The notes beneath the pieces are model-generated. The model saw only the letters and a list, made by a program, of their open reading frames with translations. It did no database searches and was not told where the DNA came from. This document shows positions 40,397 through 51,197 of a stretch of DNA of 64,000 nucleotides, piece after piece (within the stretch, counting starts at the first letter, position 1; each line of letters begins with the position of its first letter). A program made the position numbers and the translations under genes. This stretch comes from Methanosarcina horonobensis HB-1 = JCM 15518. GTDB taxonomy: Archaea > Halobacteriota > Methanosarcinia > Methanosarcinales > Methanosarcinaceae. The stretch is taken from contig NZ_CP009516.1 of assembly GCF_000970285.1 (NCBI RefSeq), forward strand, positions 1,653,036 through 1,717,035. Reading direction: 5' to 3'.

Positions 40397-41689
40397 TCAT
40401 CCCCATAAGCAGGATACCCCTTCCTCGGAGGACGCAGCCCTACAGGTGGGGGAGGAATGCGTCAACTCTAAACCTGCTACCATTTGAATTAATGTACTTG
40501 TCCTAGCCTTCAGTCGTTTACAATTTCGCTTTACGTTGACACTATCATGGATCTTATTTCCAAAAATATCTGTTATCACAAAGTATCCTGTAGATCGTTT
40601 TCCTTTTACAATACCAACTCCTTTCTCTGTTCTAATTAAGTCAAACTTCCGCAACCCGAACAATTTTCCTGTAGGGATTTTCTTTTCTGATCTTTTACCA
40701 GTTGTTTGTTGATAATCACCCTTTGAAACATGTTTTTTGAAATAGATTGTTGGATTTGTTGTTACTTTTTGATCAAAATCACAACAAATTGCCACTCCAT
40801 CATTATAATGAGTTTTCGGAAGCTCTAAGATTTGTTCTCTTTTGTATTTAGTTTCGTATCCGAAAGTTTCTTTAAAATTCCATTCGGATTTCTTAATCTG
40901 AGATTTGATAATTCCAACATCGGTTGCATGTTTTGTTTTTGATACATTTCCAAAAAGTTTAATTTTCCCTTCGTGTAATTTCTGATGACAGGTACTACAA
41001 AGCGTTATCAAATTTTCGGGAGTGTCTGTACCGTTCTGTGATCTAAAAATAATATGATGACAATGTAACTTTGGGTCTTTTGACTTGCTTTTGCAATGTT
41101 GACAAGTGTGATTGTCTCTGCTGAGAACATAAGCTTTCAAATTGTAGAACCCTTTTTGATCTCCATTTTGATATCCTATTCCTGAAACATCTGGATTAGT
41201 TATCTTATGGGTATCAAAAGAAGCAAGTTCTACTTTCCATTCTGTTACAGGCAGAATCGATTCGACAAACTTCTTTTCTCTGAAATGAGATTCAAGTTTA
41301 CTTCGAATAGAAGGCGGTATTCGTCCTTCTCTTTGCGAATTTCTTCTATTATCAAATCTTGCAGGTCTATATCTGGTATTTCTGCTTCTTCGAGTTCTCC
41401 TGTACATAGCCCTTTGTTGCATTTTACCAGATACATCTTGTCTGATCTCAGTTTCAGACTGGTACAGTATTTTTCCGTTTCCAACTGCAGCACAACCTAT
41501 TTTTTTAGAGCCAGAATCCATTCCTGCAACAACAGGTTGAGTATAACCCTTACTGTTATAATTTAACTTAATAGTAAATGGAATTCTACTGACCATTTTT
41601 GCTTTACCTGCTTTAAGCAAAATTCTTGCTTTTGCTGGATTTGTTGGCATCAACGGTTTTTGATTTTTGTTAAGTACAAACACAAATAT
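40397..41689 (-). CDS. iscB: IscB RNA-guided nuclease (Cas9-ancestor family)
   Basis: About 430 residues. The N-terminal PLMP domain reads FVLNKNQKPLMPTNPAKARI. RuvC-I is VVAGMDSGSKKIG (~57), followed by an arginine-rich bridge helix (QQRAMYRRTRRSRNTRYRPA, ~90-110) and RuvC-II KVELASFD. The HNH domain has CQHCKSKS...CHHIIFRSQNGTDTPENL and CSTCHQKLHEG (~195-245), and RuvC-III is near THYNDGVAICC. All catalytic motifs look intact. IscB cuts DNA guided by an omega-RNA. GTG at 41683 is possible, but an in-frame ATA at 41689, eight bases after AGGAGG, restores the family N-terminus MxVFVLN and is used here. The C-terminal ~20 residues may be read-through into the element end. Confidence 0.9.
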   Translation of the reverse strand: MFVFVLNKNQKPLMPTNPAKARILLKAGKAKMVSRIPFTIKLNYNSKGYTQPVVAGMDSGSKKIGCAAVGNGKILYQSETEIRQDVSGKMQQRAMYRRTRRSRNTRYRPARFDNRRNSQREGRIPPSIRSKLESHFREKKFVESILPVTEWKVELASFDTHKITNPDVSGIGYQNGDQKGFYNLKAYVLSRDNHTCQHCKSKSKDPKLHCHHIIFRSQNGTDTPENLITLCSTCHQKLHEGKIKLFGNVSKTKHATDVGIIKSQIKKSEWNFKETFGYETKYKREQILELPKTHYNDGVAICCDFDQKVTTNPTIYFKKHVSKGDYQQTTGKRSEKKIPTGKLFGLRKFDLIRTEKGVGIVKGKRSTGYFVITDIFGNKIHDSVNVKRNCKRLKARTSTLIQMVAGLELTHSSPTCRAASSEEGVSCLWG

Positions 41690-42005: not shown

Positions 42006-42551
42006 TCTTTCATCTGGTAGAATCTGATGAGTTCTGAAACTGATATTTCTCCATCATTTTTGGAGTTTACATGATTTACATGTATTTATTATTTCTCAGA
42101 TCTCATATTGTCAATGTACAGTTTTTCCTTTGAATTAATTTAATCTTTGATTTTTCTTCAATGTTCCGCATGTTATATATTTAAATTTGTTAAAGACTAT
42201 TTTGATTTTTAGCGGTATAAATCCTAAATATATTAATTTTTCTCTTTGAAATTAAAGTTGCTCTGTTCACAGTGAATATTATCCTCTAGCTTAAAGCCCT
42301 GTGTCTTCTGGCCGGATAAATTTACAGTAACTAAAATCATGACGTATGAACTCATATTATAAACATAACCGTATCAAAAGTCATACAAATTGATTCAAAT
42401 AAATAGCTTTATTTTTGCTTAATCTTTTAATATTTGTTTATTTAAAAATGTTCATTTATACCAATATCTTTATATTGTACTTACAGTTAATTCCTAATTA
42501 ATTATAGGAAGTATTATCGAAAATTTCTTCTATTTTTAGGGAGGAATTGGA
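42006..42551. other. AT-rich promoter region of first surface protein
   Basis: No gene. A TATA-like tatctttatattg lies near 42463-42477 and the GGGAGG ribosome-binding site at the right edge. The left end would hold the DNA matching the IscB guide, if the element end is correctly placed. Confidence 0.5.
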
Positions 42552-45500
42552 ATAAACAGACTAAGTATTTTACTATTTGCCACTCTCATAATAACACTAA
42601 GTTCCTGCGTTGGAGCAGCGGCTGAACATTCAGTCGCATCCGGAGATTCGATACAGGCTGCGGTGTATAATGCATCTCCGGGAGATACAATAATCGTAGG
42701 ACCCGGAACCTATACAGAAAATCTCAATATAAATAAAAGTCTAATAATAAGGTCTTCGGGGAGTTCTGCAGACACGATAATTGTTGCGAACAACACAAAC
42801 GCGCATGTAATCACTATACAGGACCAGAACAGCGTAACAATGAAAGGGTTCAACATTACAGGAGCAGGAACCAACTACTCAGGAATCTATGTGCTCAGAA
42901 GTCCTAACTGTGTCATTGAAGACAACATATTGCACAATGACGGCCTTGGAGTATACCTTAAAACTTCTAATAATAACATTATCCGCAATAACACAGCCAG
43001 CAAGAATCTTCTTATAGGCACGGGTACAGGATTCAACATTGAACAGTCCAATTACACTACTGTTTCGAACAATACGGTTTCAAACCATGGTTATGGGATT
43101 TATGTTCGTGGTTCCCAGGGTGAAATACTCTCAGGAAATACTATAAGTCAGAATGCTATCGACAGTATAGTCGTGGAGAACTCGATCAGTAACATCCTTG
43201 AAAACAATACCGTAAAATCAAATGCAAGATATGGAGTCTATTTGTCAGGTTCGGGTAATAACAGCCTGAGGTACAATCTGGTGTCCAACGGTACTAACGG
43301 AATTTACTTGGTGGGTTCCCCTGAAAACACAATCTCGGGTAACACAGTAGATTTCGGCAGTTCACATGATATTATGCTGGACAATTCAAGCGATAACAGC
43401 GTGACCAACAATACAATTTCAAGCAGTGAATACGGAATAGCTGTAAGGTATTCCAATAATAATATCCTGACCGGCAATAATGCATATAATAATACTCAGG
43501 GCCTATACATAACGCTAACATCCAGCAATAATACACTTTCAGGCAATACGGCAAATTCAAACAGCGGTACTGGTATCAGCCTTTATAGAGTCAGCGATAA
43601 TATTCTGGAAAGTAATGAAGCAAATTCAAACGCAAATCAGGGCATTCTTCTGGATAATTCAAGCAATAATGAAGTGTTCAACAACAGTATATCTCAAAAC
43701 TCCAGAGGTATTTACTTAAGTTCATCATCCAGTGGGAACGAAGTTTCAGGCAATATAGTGAATTCGAATACTGGTCGTGGTATTGAACTTTATTTTGCCG
43801 GCAGTAACAATCTTACCAGTAATGTTGTAAGTTCGAATAGTAATTACGGAATTTACCTGACAAATTCCAGTAATAGTTTCCTGATCAGTAATACAGCTTC
43901 GAGCAACTCTAAAGGCATCTATGTTGTGAATTCAAGCGAGTGTATGATCTCTAACAATACTGTCTCTAATAATAGAGTAGATCTTAATAACTCAAACGGG
44001 ATAATGCTCTCGAACTCCAGTAACAATACTCTTTACATGAATAAGGCTGTCAACAATCCCTATGGAATTTCTCTGGATTCTTCTCAAAACAATAATATTT
44101 CAAGTAACAATGTGACTTTAAGCACTAAACACGGTCTATTTTTGTGTGCTCGGAGCACTAATAATCTTATTTTTAATAACTATCTGAATAACACATTTAA
44201 TACAAATAATAATAACACCCAAGGTATCTGGAATATAACAATAACTCCGGGTAGGAGCATTGTGAATGGACCAAATACCGGAGGGAATTATTGGGCAAAC
44301 CCTCTCGGGACAGGCTTCTCCCAGACTGCAACCGATGCAGATGGGGATGGCATTGCTGATTCAGTATATAATGGAGATAACTTAGTAGACTACCACCCGC
44401 TTGTAGCTGTCAATCTCGCGCTTCCTGTTGCAAATTTCAGCAGCAATGTAACAAGTGGTCTTGCTCCTCTGTCAGTTCAGTTTACTGACAGTTCTCAGAA
44501 TGCAACTGGCTGGAAATGGGACTTCGACAACAACGGTGTAGTAGATTCAATTATCCAGAATCCTGTCAATGTGTATACAGTTCCAGGAAATTATACTGTT
44601 AATCTTACAGTAAACAACGAAAACGGTACTAATTCAAAGTTCGGTAACATAACCGTTTCAGCTGGTTCTGTACTTCCTGTTGCAAACTTCACCACTAACA
44701 TTACAAGTGGAAATACTCCTCTTACAGTCCTGTTTACAGATACTTCTCAAAATGCAACCGGATGGAACTGGAACTTTGGGGACGGAGCTACTTCAACAGA
44801 GCAGAACCCGACCCATACTTACTTTGCTACAGGAACCTATACTGTTAACCTGACAGTAAGTAACGGAAACAGTTTTGCCTCCAAAATTGCTACGATAACT
44901 GTATTGGAGAGCAACTCTGATGACGACAATGACGACTCAAGTGGAGGAAGTAGCCACAGCAGTGGCGGCGGTGGCGGTGGCGGTTCTCCTGAGCCTGCAA
45001 GGAATGTTGAAGTAAAGGAGCTTTCTCAGGTCGTCATTACAAACGGCAAAGCTGCTCAGTTTGATTTCACAAAGAACGCAACATGTGTCGTGTATGTGGG
45101 CTTTGATGCCAAGAAGACTGTTGGAAAGACCACAACCATTGTTGAGCAGTTAAAAAATAAATCTACACTTGTCTCCAACCTTTCTGAAGGAGAGGTCTAC
45201 AGGTACTTCAATGTCTGGGTAGGAAACAGCGGGTTTGCAAGCTCAGAAAACATAGAAAATCCGAACATATGTTTCAAGGTTGAAAAGTCCTGGATCAAGG
45301 ATAAAAACATAGACAAGGATTCAATCACTCTCAACAGGTACAGCAATAAAACCTGGGAACAACTGCCAGTCAGCCTTTCAGGGGAAGATGACAAGTATCT
45401 GTATTTCAAATCCAGCGTCCCGGGTTATTCATTCTTTGCAATAACAGGGAAGTCAAATGCTTCTTCGGAAGAAACTGTAACTGAAATACAGCCCGAAGGC

Positions 45501-45653
45501 AAACCTGACAATTCTGAGGAAAATATAGAAGATACAGGATCAGAAGTTGACCATGAGTCTGACGGGGACGAAGAAAGCACAGGCATGCCAGGCTTTGATA
45601 TGGTTTACGGAATAGCCGGTCTGCTTGCAGTGTTCCTGTACAAACGGAAGTAA
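42552..45653 (+). CDS. PGF-CTERM surface protein with NosD-type beta-helix and two PKD domains
   Basis: About 1033 residues. A signal peptide (NRLSILLFATLIITLSSCVGAA) is followed by a long parallel beta-helix of ~23-residue units rich in Asn and Ser (~50-600, NNTVSNN and GIYL motifs). Two PKD domains (~620-790) and a poly-Gly linker (~800) come next. A PGF-pre-PGF type domain (~815-970), an acidic stalk and PGF-CTERM (MPGFDMVYGIAGLLAVFLYKRK) end the protein. It should be exported, heavily N-glycosylated and processed by archaeosortase A. The first ATG/GTG/TTG in frame (GTG 42663) would remove the signal peptide; ATA at 42552, seven bases after GGGAGG, is the likely start. Confidence 0.88.
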   Translation: MNRLSILLFATLIITLSSCVGAAAEHSVASGDSIQAAVYNASPGDTIIVGPGTYTENLNINKSLIIRSSGSSADTIIVANNTNAHVITIQDQNSVTMKGFNITGAGTNYSGIYVLRSPNCVIEDNILHNDGLGVYLKTSNNNIIRNNTASKNLLIGTGTGFNIEQSNYTTVSNNTVSNHGYGIYVRGSQGEILSGNTISQNAIDSIVVENSISNILENNTVKSNARYGVYLSGSGNNSLRYNLVSNGTNGIYLVGSPENTISGNTVDFGSSHDIMLDNSSDNSVTNNTISSSEYGIAVRYSNNNILTGNNAYNNTQGLYITLTSSNNTLSGNTANSNSGTGISLYRVSDNILESNEANSNANQGILLDNSSNNEVFNNSISQNSRGIYLSSSSSGNEVSGNIVNSNTGRGIELYFAGSNNLTSNVVSSNSNYGIYLTNSSNSFLISNTASSNSKGIYVVNSSECMISNNTVSNNRVDLNNSNGIMLSNSSNNTLYMNKAVNNPYGISLDSSQNNNISSNNVTLSTKHGLFLCARSTNNLIFNNYLNNTFNTNNNNTQGIWNITITPGRSIVNGPNTGGNYWANPLGTGFSQTATDADGDGIADSVYNGDNLVDYHPLVAVNLALPVANFSSNVTSGLAPLSVQFTDSSQNATGWKWDFDNNGVVDSIIQNPVNVYTVPGNYTVNLTVNNENGTNSKFGNITVSAGSVLPVANFTTNITSGNTPLTVLFTDTSQNATGWNWNFGDGATSTEQNPTHTYFATGTYTVNLTVSNGNSFASKIATITVLESNSDDDNDDSSGGSSHSSGGGGGGGSPEPARNVEVKELSQVVITNGKAAQFDFTKNATCVVYVGFDAKKTVGKTTTIVEQLKNKSTLVSNLSEGEVYRYFNVWVGNSGFASSENIENPNICFKVEKSWIKDKNIDKDSITLNRYSNKTWEQLPVSLSGEDDKYLYFKSSVPGYSFFAITGKSNASSEETVTEIQPEGKPDNSEENIEDTGSEVDHESDGDEESTGMPGFDMVYGIAGLLAVFLYKRK

Positions 45654-46255
45654 AAGAGCTAAAAACCAGGAAATTAATATGGAAAACATGGATGAGGGTA
45701 TCAGATCTTCATCCTGTCTTTCTTTTTTATTTCACTTTTTCATGCATTCTAAATTTCTCTTCTTGTCTTCCATTTAATTTACCCATTTTTGTCTTACTTT
45801 CATTCTTTTGTCTTTTCTCTAGACTGTTTCTGTCACTCTCTTGTTTTTTCCCTCGACTGTTTCTTATTTACTTTTTAATTTATATTCCTGACTTGCTTGA
45901 CTCTAAAATTGCCTTTTCAAATTATAGAGTAGAAAAAAAATCCTTAACCTGAAAGTAAAGAAATCTTAATAGGATCAGGTTTTATTGAGTGAAACACCTG
46001 CATCTGATACACAGCAGATAATGCTAATTTTGAAGAATCAACTGTAGCTTGTTATTGTGAAAGCTAATCTGAAACCTCGAAAAAGAGAGTATACGGAACT
46101 TATTTTAATAGACTGGAATTGGTTTTCTTTTCTTTATGTACTTTTATAGCTATTATTCTGATATTATTTTCTAATAGATTTATATTATTTCATGTTTATT
46201 TCAGCTTGGGGAAGATAAATCTTAATATAAATAATATCGGACGTGGGGGATTCAA
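45654..46255. other. Intergenic region between surface protein genes
   Basis: Long pyrimidine-rich runs at 45715-45860 probably terminate the upstream transcript. A TATA-like gatttatattat near 46168-46180 may serve the next gene. No gene seen. Confidence 0.5.
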
Positions 46256-48307
46256 ATACACAGAGTAATTGCTCTATTTTTAGCCTTACTGGTTTTGACA
46301 TTAGGCTCGGGTATAGGAACTGCAACTGAAATTGTTGTCCAGTCAGGACAGTCAATTCAGGATGCAGTGAATAGTTCGGTTTCAGGCGATGAGATTATCG
46401 TAAGCCCGGGAAACTATACTGAAAATCTCAGAATAACAACAAGTGATCTGATTGTCAGGTCAGCTTCCGGGAACCCTGAAGATACAATCGTGACTGCGAA
46501 CAATCCGGCTGAGGATGCGATTTATGTCGAAGCAAATAACGTAACGATTAGAGATCTCAGCATTAATGGTGCAGGAAATGACCGCGCAGGAATTTATTTG
46601 ATAAGGTCCAGCAACTGTACTATCGAAAATAATGAGCTTTTAAATGACGCTCTCGGAATCTACCTTAAAAACTCGGCTTATAACCTGATTCTCAACAATA
46701 AAGCAGCAGAAGGTAAGAGAGCAGTTAATGTTGACAGATCAAACTATAACACAGTATCAGGTAATACTGTTTCAAATCAGAGGTATGGAATATATCTTCT
46801 TGTCTCTGAGGGGAATCTGGTTTCAAATAACATGGTAAGTATGAGTGCTGATCACGGTATTGTTCTGGAAAGCTGCAGTAATACCAGCCTTGAAAACAAC
46901 ACTGCAAGCTCAAACGAGGACAATGGAATTCACCTTGTTGGGTCAAGTGGCAATAACCTGACAGGCAATACCGTAGATTCAAACCTGGTCTATGGTATAT
47001 ATCTGACGGATTCCAGTAGGAACAATCTGACAAATAATACGGCATTGAACAGCAGTAGAGGCATTTTCCTCTTCAGATCAGGCGAAAGTGTGCTCTCAGG
47101 GAACACGGTTTCAAACAGCGGAGACGGTATCCTGATCGCATCCACAGAAAACAGCAATATCTCAGAGAATACAGTCCTGGATAACAGCGTCTCTGGAATA
47201 TCTTTGCAGAATTCTAGTACCTGTGTCATAAGCGACAATATACTCTCTAATAGCACACTTGGAATAAATCTGGCTTTCTCCGGCAACAGTACTGTGATTA
47301 ATAACAGTGTTCTGGGTGGGGGAAGAGGGCTTAACCTGCAGGACTCAAACTACAATACGCTCTTTAACAATACAGCTTTGAACAACAGGTACGGCGCTTA
47401 CCTGCTGCGCTCAGGCTGGAACGTACTCTCAAATAACACGGTAAACGAAAGTGATGATCATGGTATTGTTCTTGAGAACTCAAGCAACTATAATGACATT
47501 ACCAGTAACATAGCAAGCTCTAACCGTGCTTATGGTATATACCTTGCAGGTTCAAATAACAATAACTTAAGCAGTAACGAAGCATCCGGCAACAGTAGAG
47601 GAGTTTACCTTATTACTTCGAACGGTAACACTCTTTTGAAAAATACTGTCCTGAATAATGGCGAGTACGCAATTCTGCTATCGTATTCCTCAGGTAACAA
47701 TATCTCGGAAAACGAGGCTTCTAATAGCAACAGGGGCATTCACCTGAGCACCTCTAGCGATAATACGCTTTCAGGCAATACTATTGTCTCAAATAGCATT
47801 TCCGGCGTATACATGGCTTCAACAAGCAATAACAACATCTTCTTTAATAACTATCTGAATAACAATGTTAATGCAGATGTCAAACAGGGAAGCGCCGGAA
47901 ATATCTTGAACACAACTAAAACCGCAGGTACAAGCATAACGGGTGGCCCGTATATAGGAGGAAATTATTGGGCAAAACCTGATGGCACAGGTTTCTCCCA
48001 GACTGCAGCCGATGCAGACGGAGATTTCATTGCCGATGGAGTGTTCAACGTTTCAAATAGTGGCTACACGGACTATTTCCCGCTTGTAGTTGCTTCTGAA
48101 ACACAACAACCCGTAATTCCAGCAAATATAACGGACAGTCAAACTGAAACTTTAACAAACGAGTCGGAAATGCCTGCAAACGAATCGGAGCTGGATATTA
48201 TTGCAACAGAATCAATTACTAACGAAACAGAAACAACTACTCACGAAAACGAAAGTGAGTATGAGTACGAAAGTGAGTATGAGTACGAAAGTGAGTATGA
48301 GTACTAA
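46256..48307 (+). CDS. Beta-helix surface protein lacking a PGF-CTERM anchor
   Basis: About 683 residues. A signal peptide (HRVIALFLALLVLTLGSGIGTA) is followed by a right-handed beta-helix of Asn-rich repeats (~50-560) and the NosD-type closing motif GGPYIGGNYWAKPDGTGFSQ. Then comes a Thr/Glu/Asn-rich stalk. Unlike its two neighbours it has no PKD domain and no PGF-CTERM; it ends in three ESEYEY units. It is probably secreted or held by partners. The start is an ATA at 46256, six bases after GGGGGA; the first standard start codon (TTG 46295) would cut the signal peptide in half. Confidence 0.83.
   Translation: MHRVIALFLALLVLTLGSGIGTATEIVVQSGQSIQDAVNSSVSGDEIIVSPGNYTENLRITTSDLIVRSASGNPEDTIVTANNPAEDAIYVEANNVTIRDLSINGAGNDRAGIYLIRSSNCTIENNELLNDALGIYLKNSAYNLILNNKAAEGKRAVNVDRSNYNTVSGNTVSNQRYGIYLLVSEGNLVSNNMVSMSADHGIVLESCSNTSLENNTASSNEDNGIHLVGSSGNNLTGNTVDSNLVYGIYLTDSSRNNLTNNTALNSSRGIFLFRSGESVLSGNTVSNSGDGILIASTENSNISENTVLDNSVSGISLQNSSTCVISDNILSNSTLGINLAFSGNSTVINNSVLGGGRGLNLQDSNYNTLFNNTALNNRYGAYLLRSGWNVLSNNTVNESDDHGIVLENSSNYNDITSNIASSNRAYGIYLAGSNNNNLSSNEASGNSRGVYLITSNGNTLLKNTVLNNGEYAILLSYSSGNNISENEASNSNRGIHLSTSSDNTLSGNTIVSNSISGVYMASTSNNNIFFNNYLNNNVNADVKQGSAGNILNTTKTAGTSITGGPYIGGNYWAKPDGTGFSQTAADADGDFIADGVFNVSNSGYTDYFPLVVASETQQPVIPANITDSQTETLTNESEMPANESELDIIATESITNETETTTHENESEYEYESEYEYESEYEY
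48251..48304 (+). repeat. Three perfect 18-bp tandem repeats at gene end
   Basis: The unit gaaagtgagtatgagtac occurs three times without a mismatch, immediately before the stop codon, and encodes (ESEYEY)3. Perfect identity suggests recent slippage and variable copy number between strains. Confidence 0.9.
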
Positions 48308-48890
48308 AATGAGGAATGAGGAATGATATAAAGAAGCTTGGTTTCAAAAGGACTGTACTAAGTAACTCAATTAATAATAAGAAAGGCTGGATGAAGGTAT
48401 GGCTCCTTCATCTTAATTTTTTCTTTTTTCTTACTTTCTCCCCTTATTCTTTTTCATGAGATCTTAATCTGCTGACCAATTCTCAATTTTCTGATTTATA
48501 ATCTATTCCTGAGGTCTTGGTATTAGAATGGATTTTCCGCACGGTTAATAGATGCTTATTCATACTATTAAAATAAAAAAATCTAAACAGACAAATAAAA
48601 TTAATAAATAAGTTCAAAAAATCTGTACTCGAATTAACAAATCCAGATATTAATATATTTATGTATCCGTTTTCTGTTAATAATTATTTTATATTTATAT
48701 TGATCGATTATTGACTTAAACTAGTTTAAGTTAAACCAGTATATTTATATCGTTGCAGGATTTTTCATCTAACTTGCTAGAATATCTGTTAGAATATCTA
48801 TTAGAATATCTATTAGAATATGTGGTTAGAATATATGGTTGAATTTCTAGTTGGAACACTTCCATAAATGTCTTTAAAGGAGAAGTTATA
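48308..48890. other. Intergenic region with tandem repeats before third surface protein
   Basis: AT-rich, with a TATA-like tatatttatatcg near 48739-48752 and a 12-bp tandem array at 48776-48848 between it and the ribosome-binding site. No gene seen. Confidence 0.55.
48776..48848 (+). repeat. About six tandem 12-13-bp units in the leader of the third surface gene
   Basis: Units of the form ttagaatatct follow one another from 48776, drifting toward the right end (gctagaatatct, gttagaatatct, attagaatatct twice, then variants). There are no spacers, so this is not a CRISPR array. It would lie in the 5' leader if transcription starts about 25 bp after the TATA-like site. Confidence 0.75.
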
Positions 48891-50378
48891 ATAAACAAAC
48901 TGATTATTTTACTTGCAGCTTTTCTTATTTTTACATCAATCCAGGGTATCGGAACTGCGGCCGAGATCTTTGTCCAGCCAGGAGATTCGATACAGGAAAC
49001 AGTAAGCAGTGCGCGTTCAGGTGATGAAATTATTGTAAAGCCAGGGACCTATTCAGAGCATATTATTATAACAAGGAATAATCTGGTAGTAAGGTCAGAA
49101 TCCGACAACCCTGAAGATACAGTAATTGAAGCTTATGATCCGAATGCTGACATACTCACGATACAGGCAGATAACCTAACATTTAAAGGGTTCACGATTA
49201 CCGGAGCCGGAACCAATTGTTCAGGTATCTCCCTGTATGAATGCAATAACTGCCTTATCGACAATAACAAGCTTTTCAACGACTCCATGGGAATATACAT
49301 TGCATACTCCGAGAAAAACAGGATTTTAAACAATAAAATTGTCAAAGGCAGCAGGGGAATCAGCATTGAACAGTCCAATCACAACTCAATTGTAAGCAAT
49401 AAAGTTTCTAAATGCAGGTATGGAATCTATCTTCTGAATTCTAAAGAAAACAGGGTCTCTAAAAACACAGTTCTGGAAAACAGAGAGTACGGTCTTCTGC
49501 TTTCGGCCTCGAACGGCAACACTCTTTCCGGAAATATCGTTTCTGACAACAGCAGAGGCATTCACATTGGAAACTCTGACGGCAACACGCTCTCTAATAA
49601 CGCGATCTCTTTAAATGAAGTCAACGGACTTTTTGTCTGTCCGAGAAGTGATAAAAATCTTGTTTTCAATAACTACTTCAATAATACCCTCAATGTAGAG
49701 GCCAATAACGGAACCTCAAATGCTTATAACAATCCAAAGACCGAAGGCAAAAATATTGCAGGCGGACCATATATCGGAGGGAATTACTGGGCAGCACCTA
49801 ACGGGACAGGTTTTTCGGAAAATGCAACTGATGCAGATGGAGATGGAATTGCTGATGAAAGATACAGGTTTGAAACCAGTTACTATATTGATTACCTGCC
49901 TCTTGTAGCTTACAAACCTCCGGAACCGGTCCTTCCTGTAGCAAACCTGAGCACCAGTGTCCCGGAGGGTTATGCCCTTTTCTCTGTGCAGTTTACTGAT
50001 CTTTCGAAAAACTCAACATCAAGGAGTTGGGACTTTGAAAATGACGGAACCATTGACTCATCAGAGGAGATTCATGTTTATACATACTCGGTTTCCGGAA
50101 TCTATACTGTTAATCTGACCATAGCAAACGAAAACGGCACGGATTCAAAACTTGTTACGATAAATGTTGAGGAAGAGAACGTAACCGAGGTACTCCCGGG
50201 ATCAGAGCCTGGCACTCCCGAAGGAGATTTTAGCAGCCCGGGGAACACTGACACTACAGAGTCACAGGCTGAACAGGGCTCAGGACTGAAAGAGATCAGC
50301 AGTATACCTGGCTTTGAAATGATTTATGGAATCTTTGGTTTGCTTGCGATATTTCTGTATAAAGGAACCAGTAAATAA
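48891..50378 (+). CDS. PGF-CTERM surface protein with beta-helix and PKD domain
   Basis: About 495 residues. A signal peptide (NKLIILLAAFLIFTSIQGIGTA) precedes the beta-helix (~45-290) and the closing motif GGPYIGGNYWAAPNGTGFSE. One PKD domain (~340-430), an acidic stalk and PGF-CTERM (IPGFEMIYGIFGLLAIFLYK) follow. It is expected on the cell surface after archaeosortase processing. The first ATG in frame is at 49287, some 130 residues into the mature protein. An ATA at 48891 (or the ATA directly before it) lies 5-8 bases after AAGGAG and is the likely start. Confidence 0.86.
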   Translation: MNKLIILLAAFLIFTSIQGIGTAAEIFVQPGDSIQETVSSARSGDEIIVKPGTYSEHIIITRNNLVVRSESDNPEDTVIEAYDPNADILTIQADNLTFKGFTITGAGTNCSGISLYECNNCLIDNNKLFNDSMGIYIAYSEKNRILNNKIVKGSRGISIEQSNHNSIVSNKVSKCRYGIYLLNSKENRVSKNTVLENREYGLLLSASNGNTLSGNIVSDNSRGIHIGNSDGNTLSNNAISLNEVNGLFVCPRSDKNLVFNNYFNNTLNVEANNGTSNAYNNPKTEGKNIAGGPYIGGNYWAAPNGTGFSENATDADGDGIADERYRFETSYYIDYLPLVAYKPPEPVLPVANLSTSVPEGYALFSVQFTDLSKNSTSRSWDFENDGTIDSSEEIHVYTYSVSGIYTVNLTIANENGTDSKLVTINVEEENVTEVLPGSEPGTPEGDFSSPGNTDTTESQAEQGSGLKEISSIPGFEMIYGIFGLLAIFLYKGTSK

Positions 50379-50519: not shown

Positions 50520-51197
50520 ATTAAGCTATGGGAAGCCTTTGAAAGACATGCAGAGGAATACGATGCATGGTATGACAAATACAACCCTGCATATAAATCC
50601 GAGCTTCTTGCCCTGAAAACCTTTTTTCCGGACAATCCTGGAAAGCTTAAAGCTCTTGAGGTTGGGGCTGGAACAGGCAGGTTTGCACTTCCTCTCAGGG
50701 TCGGGTATGGACTTGAACCTGCAAGGGCAATGGCAGAGATTGCAGAAAAACGAGGCGTTCAAATGGTGTTAGGGGTTGCCGAGTTCCTTCCCTTTAAAAG
50801 ACAGAGTTTTGATCTTGTTTTGATCGTAGCTGCACTTTCCCTTTTTAAAGACCCGGTACAGGCACTGTATGAGGCCTCAGGTACCCTGAAGCCTGGTGGG
50901 CAAATCGTTATAGGGATACTTGACAGGGACAGCTTGCATGGATATTTTTATGAGTCAGGGAAAAAGGAAGGTAGGTTTTCCTCAGGGGCTAAATTCCTCT
51001 CAACTTCCGAGGTGTTAGGCTGGCTTACAGATCTCGGATTTGAAGAAATTAAAGTCTGCCAGACACTTTATATGCAGCCTGAAAAAATAGAAAATATAGA
51101 ACTTCCACAAAAGGGGTTCGGGATAGGAAGCTTTGCTGTGATCTCAGCCAGAAAACCAGGCTTTTCACTTTCTGTTAGTCCAGTACTAAATGATTGA
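50520..51197 (+). CDS. Class I SAM-dependent methyltransferase
   Basis: About 225 residues. WEAFERHAEEYDAWYDKY is the usual N-terminal helix of Methyltransf_11-type enzymes. The SAM-binding motif I is LEVGAGTGRFA (~50), with GLEPARAM and FDLVLIVAALSLFKDP following. The first ATG in frame (50730) comes after motif I, so it cannot be the true start. An ATT at 50520, seven bases after GGAGG, gives a complete domain, and no ATG, GTG or TTG lies between. The substrate is unknown. It follows the surface gene by 141 bp. Confidence 0.85.
   Translation: MKLWEAFERHAEEYDAWYDKYNPAYKSELLALKTFFPDNPGKLKALEVGAGTGRFALPLRVGYGLEPARAMAEIAEKRGVQMVLGVAEFLPFKRQSFDLVLIVAALSLFKDPVQALYEASGTLKPGGQIVIGILDRDSLHGYFYESGKKEGRFSSGAKFLSTSEVLGWLTDLGFEEIKVCQTLYMQPEKIENIELPQKGFGIGSFAVISARKPGFSLSVSPVLND

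Follow-up and report, generated by a model that had tools for sequence, protein, structure and literature searches.

Initiation codons that differ from AUG in the third position are known from individual bacterial genes: infC, ccpN, citZ (AUA) and cvfC1 (AUU) in S. aureus, and infC, pcnB (AUU) in E. coli (PMC13009471). In archaea, alternatives are likewise used beside ATG, and the small ORFs of Methanosarcina mazei are reported to start with ATG, TTG, GTG and, in 5%, CTG (PMC11456600). GTG, TTG and CTG, however, are first-letter changes of ATG, GTG and TTG belong to standard gene models, and starts at ATA or ATT are not reported in the text of that study. It should be noted that Prodigal ignores ATA, ATT and CTG starts by design (PMC2848648), that in archaea the factor known to select against noncanonical starts is aIF1 (PMC8211752, PMC6237735), and that an account of 61,358 ancestral AUG starts found a single switch to AUU and mentions none to AUA (PMC5622118).

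Within the genus, a published correction concerns mtbC of M. mazei (MM_1687), the gene that opens the trimethylamine operon: its annotated start is described as probably mistaken, with initiation placed 138 nt upstream (PMC11549558, citing the Ribo-seq study PMC11456600). A reporter fusion to this gene was larger than expected on a western blot, which fits 46 extra residues, and the operon gene is strongly induced when needed (PMC11549558). The main text of that paper names no start codon and draws no tie to other genes.

The genes described here resemble the bacterial examples in carrying a near-cognate third-position start after a strong Shine-Dalgarno sequence (SD) and in being missed by annotation; some of the bacterial starts, too, are conserved among relatives (PMC13009471). 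They differ in that the bacterial genes number a handful per genome, whereas the present set is archaeal, comprises a multigene surface family together with enzymes, and is conserved across a genus, the same one as that of the corrected M. mazei mtbC. In the main texts of the open-access papers searched, we found no report that Methanosarcina uses ATA or ATT as start codons, or that any archaeon has a conserved family of genes starting with ATA.

Start sites of genes 1 to 3

The window, by which we mean the whole 64,000-nucleotide stretch of DNA analysed, belongs to a 5.02-Mb Methanosarcina genome. Three neighbouring surface-protein genes in it (genes 1, 2 and 3; Table 1) had been predicted to start with an ATA placed 6-8 nt after a ribosome-binding site, at 42552, 46256 and 48891, and these coordinates, SDs and spacers were all reproduced from the sequence. 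Read directly, the start region of gene 1 is TAG-GGAGGAATTGGA-ATA, with 7 nt between the last G of GGAGG and the ATA; that of gene 2 is GTGGGGGATTCAA-ATA (spacer 6 nt) and that of gene 3 AAAGGAGAAGTTATA-ATA (spacer 8 nt). An extra ATA immediately 5' of the start of gene 3, at 48888, is not kept in orthologues. In-frame stops lie upstream of gene 1 (TAG at 42537) and gene 2 (TAA at 46232).

The first canonical codons downstream are GTG at 42663 in gene 1 (codon 38), TTG at 46295 in gene 2, within the hydrophobic core, and ATG at 49287 in gene 3, exactly 396 nt in. The original prediction that none of the genes has an ATG, GTG or TTG before the signal peptide is lost, including the 396-nt distance in gene 3, is thus reproduced, as is the loss of the export signal in standard gene calling: an ORF caller limited to these codons begins the genes at the same three positions. 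Each ATA is one base off ATG and falls within 5-9 nt after the SD, and the full-length products have no usable ATG, GTG or TTG.

All three are right-handed beta-helix (NosD-like) surface proteins and, according to Pfam, carry NosD and Beta_helix domains; the PGF-CTERM anchor is present in genes 1 and 3, and in gene 2 neither PGF-CTERM nor PKD domains were found. The signal peptides were assessed by eye and by hydrophobicity.

Table 1. Features of the locus, with positions in the window, and of the loci and protein compared with it
Feature	Position	Strand	Remark
Gene 1 Shine-Dalgarno, GGAGG	42540..42544	+	Conserved in orthologues L030-L036
Gene 1 proposed ATA start codon	42552..42554	+	Orthologues (n=7): ATA 6/7, ATT 1/7 (L032)
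Gene 1, 1033-aa surface protein, signal peptide, NosD/beta-helix, two PKD domains, PGF-CTERM	42552..45653	+	Pfam
Gene 2 Shine-Dalgarno-like GGGGG	46245..46249	+	GGGGGAT kept in orthologues
Gene 2 proposed ATA start codon	46256..46258	+	ATA in every orthologue and close relative
Gene 2, 683-aa NosD/beta-helix surface protein	46256..48307	+	Pfam
Gene 3 Shine-Dalgarno, AGGAG	48878..48882	+	Sequence and orthologue upstream alignment
Gene 3 proposed ATA start codon	48891..48893	+	Same-position ATA in L090, L091, L092
Gene 3, 495-aa surface protein, NosD/beta-helix, PKD, PGF-CTERM	48891..50378	+	Pfam
Class I methyltransferase	50520..51197	+	ATT start at 50520, 7 nt after GGAGG
mtbC protein from ATT start, predicted N-terminus			(M)SKEELLQELAGAVITCK
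Loci with in-frame stop immediately before gene-2-type ATA			L061, L042, L045, L056, L068-L072, L074, L075

Conservation of the start column across the genus

From 30 Methanosarcina genomes, 67 distinct family loci were taken and their start regions aligned via the protein. ATA occupies the start column in 51 loci, TTG in 7, ATT in 6 and ATG in 3, and no other codon occurs there; the columns on either side contain many different codons. In five of the six ATT loci (L004, L007, L057, L085, L111) the ATT sits one codon further upstream. Because an internal isoleucine would drift among ATC, GTN and CTN, the absence of all of these from the 67 loci argues that the column is not an internal isoleucine. 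The phylogeny agrees: a maximum-likelihood tree of 65 family members requires 5 start-codon changes, or 2 when only the ATA and ATT rows are taken, with no ATC, whereas at 20 conserved isoleucine positions in that alignment the codon changed 2 to 16 times each (median about 9.5), with ATC present at every one of them.

The position of the start is conserved, and relatives can carry a different start codon there. The earlier proposal that ATA is the real start, common to the paralogues, is borne out by this column, and a check of the orthologues for an ATG at another position left it standing, ATA being kept genus-wide. This genus-wide conservation is the decisive evidence for the proposed ATA starts.

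Upstream alignments of the family reveal conserved SDs and, among the relatives of genes 1 and 2, a TATA-like TTTATATT; for this reason, the family mRNAs very probably have leaders. Homologues outside Methanosarcina with readable N-termini start with ATG (L280 of Methanolobus, L113, L287 and L289), and ATA appears to have been fixed in the surface-protein family before Methanosarcina diversified.

Two details of individual family members may be recorded. L004 and L007 (G000:C1:4661890-4668566) are tandem members that keep ATT and not ATA, as do their orthologues L057, L085 and L111. The frame of L006 (G000:C1:2761982-2765362) is broken by a TGA just past the signal peptide; it is either a frameshifted copy or a sequencing error.

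ATA and ATT starts in other genes

The use of ATA and ATT starts extends further than the three surface genes first noticed. The next same-strand gene after gene 3, a methyltransferase (Table 1), is without a canonical start, and its ATT is preceded by TTTGGAGGAATTCTC. At the aligned start, orthologues have either ATA (L090, L092, L107, L205-L207) or ATG (L093, L098, L103, L195, L204), and the two exchange in near-identical contexts: L207 reads GGAGGGACCTTA-ATA-AAGCCCTGG and L195 reads GGAGGGACCTTA-ATG-AAGCCCTGG.

The corrinoid protein gene mtbC offers a second case, in which an ATT start is kept in 16 species. This ATT lies 138 nt upstream of a conserved ATG (141 nt in G020, where the script picked an adjacent ATT one codon earlier), and in most of the 16 species an in-frame stop lies 5-6 codons above it with no canonical start between. 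In the four species whose downstream gene was read, the ATT copy is followed by a protein taken as the trimethylamine methyltransferase mttB; ATG is the start of the mtbC paralogues located next to a methyltransferase of a second type. From the operon context and the matching 138-nt distance we infer that MM_1687 is the ATT copy, and the published initiation data for M. mazei mtbC support the conserved ATT position. ATT would thus be the start codon at the head of the trimethylamine operon.

SD-positioned ATA, ATT, ATC and CTG codons were counted in 1.2 Mb of the genome plus the 64-kb window. ATA (12 observed, 3.9 expected) and ATT (11 observed, 3.8 expected) are in excess, and the same scan gave no excess of ATC (1 against 2.3 expected) or CTG (2 against 1.9). 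The excess appears only once genes with a canonical SD-led start are set aside; the bulk SD-spacing histogram has no ATA excess. Set against 220 canonical SD-led starts from the same scan, these counts suggest a share of about 6% for ATA and ATT among starts led by a strong SD, an approximate value, as the filters differ. A second scan, of 1.26 Mb of this genome, was restricted to ORFs of 150 codons or more that had a strong SD and an N-terminus resembling a signal peptide, and it accepted a noncanonical start only if nothing canonical lay upstream. It returned 17 ATG, 4 TTG, 3 GTG, 5 ATA and 3 ATT; most of the remaining codons were neighbours of such a start. Genes 1 to 3 account for three of the five ATA cases, within 6.3 kb, and the occurrence of ATA here exceeds chance. 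A control sample of 448 kb from another Methanosarcinaceae genus with equal GC (G090), too small for firm conclusions, contained at most two doubtful ATA starts and no ATT.

Seven scan candidates, mtbC and the methyltransferase among them, were compared with other species. A matrixin-type metalloprotease has ATT in 8 of 9 cases and ATA in one; a calcineurin-type phosphoesterase has ATT in 13/13 orthologues; and an aspartate dehydrogenase starts with ATA, at which position L188 has ATG. A vWA/VIT surface protein has ATT, ATC and ATA at the candidate position, and possible upstream starts are present. Two apparent CTG starts were rejected: in the aspartate dehydrogenase, alignment places the start at the ATA that precedes the CTG, and in a PEGA-type protein (L142), orthologues have ATG two codons upstream, where this gene has ACG.

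Some neighbouring observations concern single loci. The methyltransferase beside the gene 3 orthologue in L090 (G020:C32) has TAA as codon 5 with the rest conserved, and is probably a pseudogene. In the vWA/VIT protein (L192 in G001, L174 in G000), the ATC that G001 has at the ATT/ATA position may be an AUC start, or the start may lie further up.

Initiation machinery and proposed mechanism

The initiator tRNA genes are tandem and of the normal CAU type, and a pattern search of this genome found only the CAU form. A special initiator tRNA with anticodon UAU was considered and rejected: the pattern GGGCTTATAACCC occurs in five genomes, but the two such loci submitted to ARAGORN, L227 and L250, contain no tRNA. 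The factor aIF1 is single-copy here and has a conserved ATG at the expected N-terminus in 7 genomes; a noncanonical start of its own, with infC-type autoregulation, was therefore discarded.

We are highly confident that ATA is a genuine start and an old alternative in Methanosarcina, best read as ordinary SD-led initiation in which the normal initiator tRNA would accept AUA and AUU. The SD 6-8 nt upstream would position the archaeal small subunit on AUA, and the ordinary initiator Met-tRNA (anticodon CAU) would presumably be placed there despite the third-position mismatch. The first residue of the protein would then be methionine, with an intact signal peptide after it. AUA and AUU would be long-standing alternatives in the surface family and in several unrelated genes. 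Lower amounts of protein are plausible in Methanosarcina, since AUA and AUU starts in S. aureus reach about 10% of the output of AUG (PMC13009471).

We also lean, on balance, towards the wider view that the Methanosarcina lineage has relaxed start-codon discrimination, with AUA and AUU as regular starts in several percent of SD-led genes and partly under selection. If so, many N-termini in public annotations may be wrong. AUA initiation has been regarded as almost non-existent in prokaryotes, yet throughout this genus a multigene surface family usually starts with ATA. Gene finders limited to ATG, GTG and TTG overlook a conserved class of starts, and recognising it sets right the N-terminus and export signal of many proteins. 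Genetic tools exist for Methanosarcina, and the fidelity with which archaea choose start codons becomes open to tests in vivo.

Alternative explanations

Two further readings are compatible with ATA being the genuine start and concern its meaning. The weak start may be regulatory: AUA and AUU would hold output low or responsive to aIF1 stringency or growth state, and ATA would have been selected for that. In our opinion this is a real possibility, if short of a probable one. It is favoured by the persistence of ATA along long branches, although a single transition leads to ATG, by the low and, in one case, medium-dependent output of such starts in S. aureus (PMC13009471), and by the discrimination that archaeal aIF1 exerts (PMC8211752; PMC6237735). 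These points have to be set against the TTG and ATG members within the same surface family, and against the ATG start of aIF1, which leaves no infC-like feedback. The highly induced catabolic mtbC and assorted enzymes share the usage as well, which shows that ATA and ATT starts reach beyond surface proteins. The original suggestion of a control that keeps surface proteins low is not supported in that form, given that these codons also open unrelated cytoplasmic enzymes, strongly induced mtbC among them.

Alternatively, Methanosarcina ribosomes may discriminate the third start position poorly, so that ATA and ATT drift near-neutrally and have no regulatory meaning. The occurrence of these codons in unrelated genes and the exchange of ATA and ATG at the methyltransferase are what such tolerance would produce, and the near-absence of both starts from the small control sample is consistent with a property of the lineage. 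Yet ATA in the surface family and ATT in mtbC are conserved more strongly than free drift would leave them, and we hold this explanation to be tenable without favouring it.

We give very little credence to a true start further upstream, either an ATG or GTG overlapping the SD or an out-of-frame codon combined with frameshifting or readthrough, with ATA as an internal isoleucine. An in-frame canonical codon does occur somewhere upstream in 33/67 family loci, often overlapping or preceding the SD, and Methanosarcina can decode UAG as pyrrolysine. In the other 34/67 loci, however, there is none, and the column lacks the ATC, GTN and CTN codons of an internal position. Furthermore, a stop codon lies in frame immediately 5' of the start in 14/67 loci, which makes a start further upstream impossible there. 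Twelve of these 14 stops precede ATA: eleven in gene 2 orthologues or close relatives with the common leader TGGGGGATT-TAA/TAG-ATA (Table 1) and the twelfth in L030, which has TGA-ATA. The stops before ATA are thus of all three kinds, and at these loci an upstream start is refuted, barring readthrough of all three stop codons. Nor is an upstream start conserved in any frame, and explanations by frameshift or upstream ORF were rejected, the upstream alignments having no conserved frame.

A sequencing or assembly error that changed ATG to ATA is refuted by the identical ATA in most of the genus, whose genomes were sequenced independently of one another; no point in its support was found, and its probability is negligible.

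Other observations

Several loci met in passing are listed for completeness. Two adjoining paralogous SBP_bac_5 solute-binding lipoproteins (L144, 13730 and 15742, plus strand) have near-identical N-termini (IKKNQQYL) and apparently start with ATT and ATA after GGAGG. A reverse transcriptase (Pfam RVT_1; L143, 16283-17512, minus strand), perhaps a group II intron protein, has an apparent ATA start after GGAGG. At position 5668 of L148, on the minus strand, IETRKVQQTGGSTYIISLPKQW is by eye probably an AbrB/PhoU-type regulator, with an apparent ATA start after CGGGGAATCCAT. Finally, the window itself encodes, at 40397-41683 on the minus strand, a 428-aa protein with Pfam RRXRR and HNH endonuclease domains, which is IscB-like by domain order.
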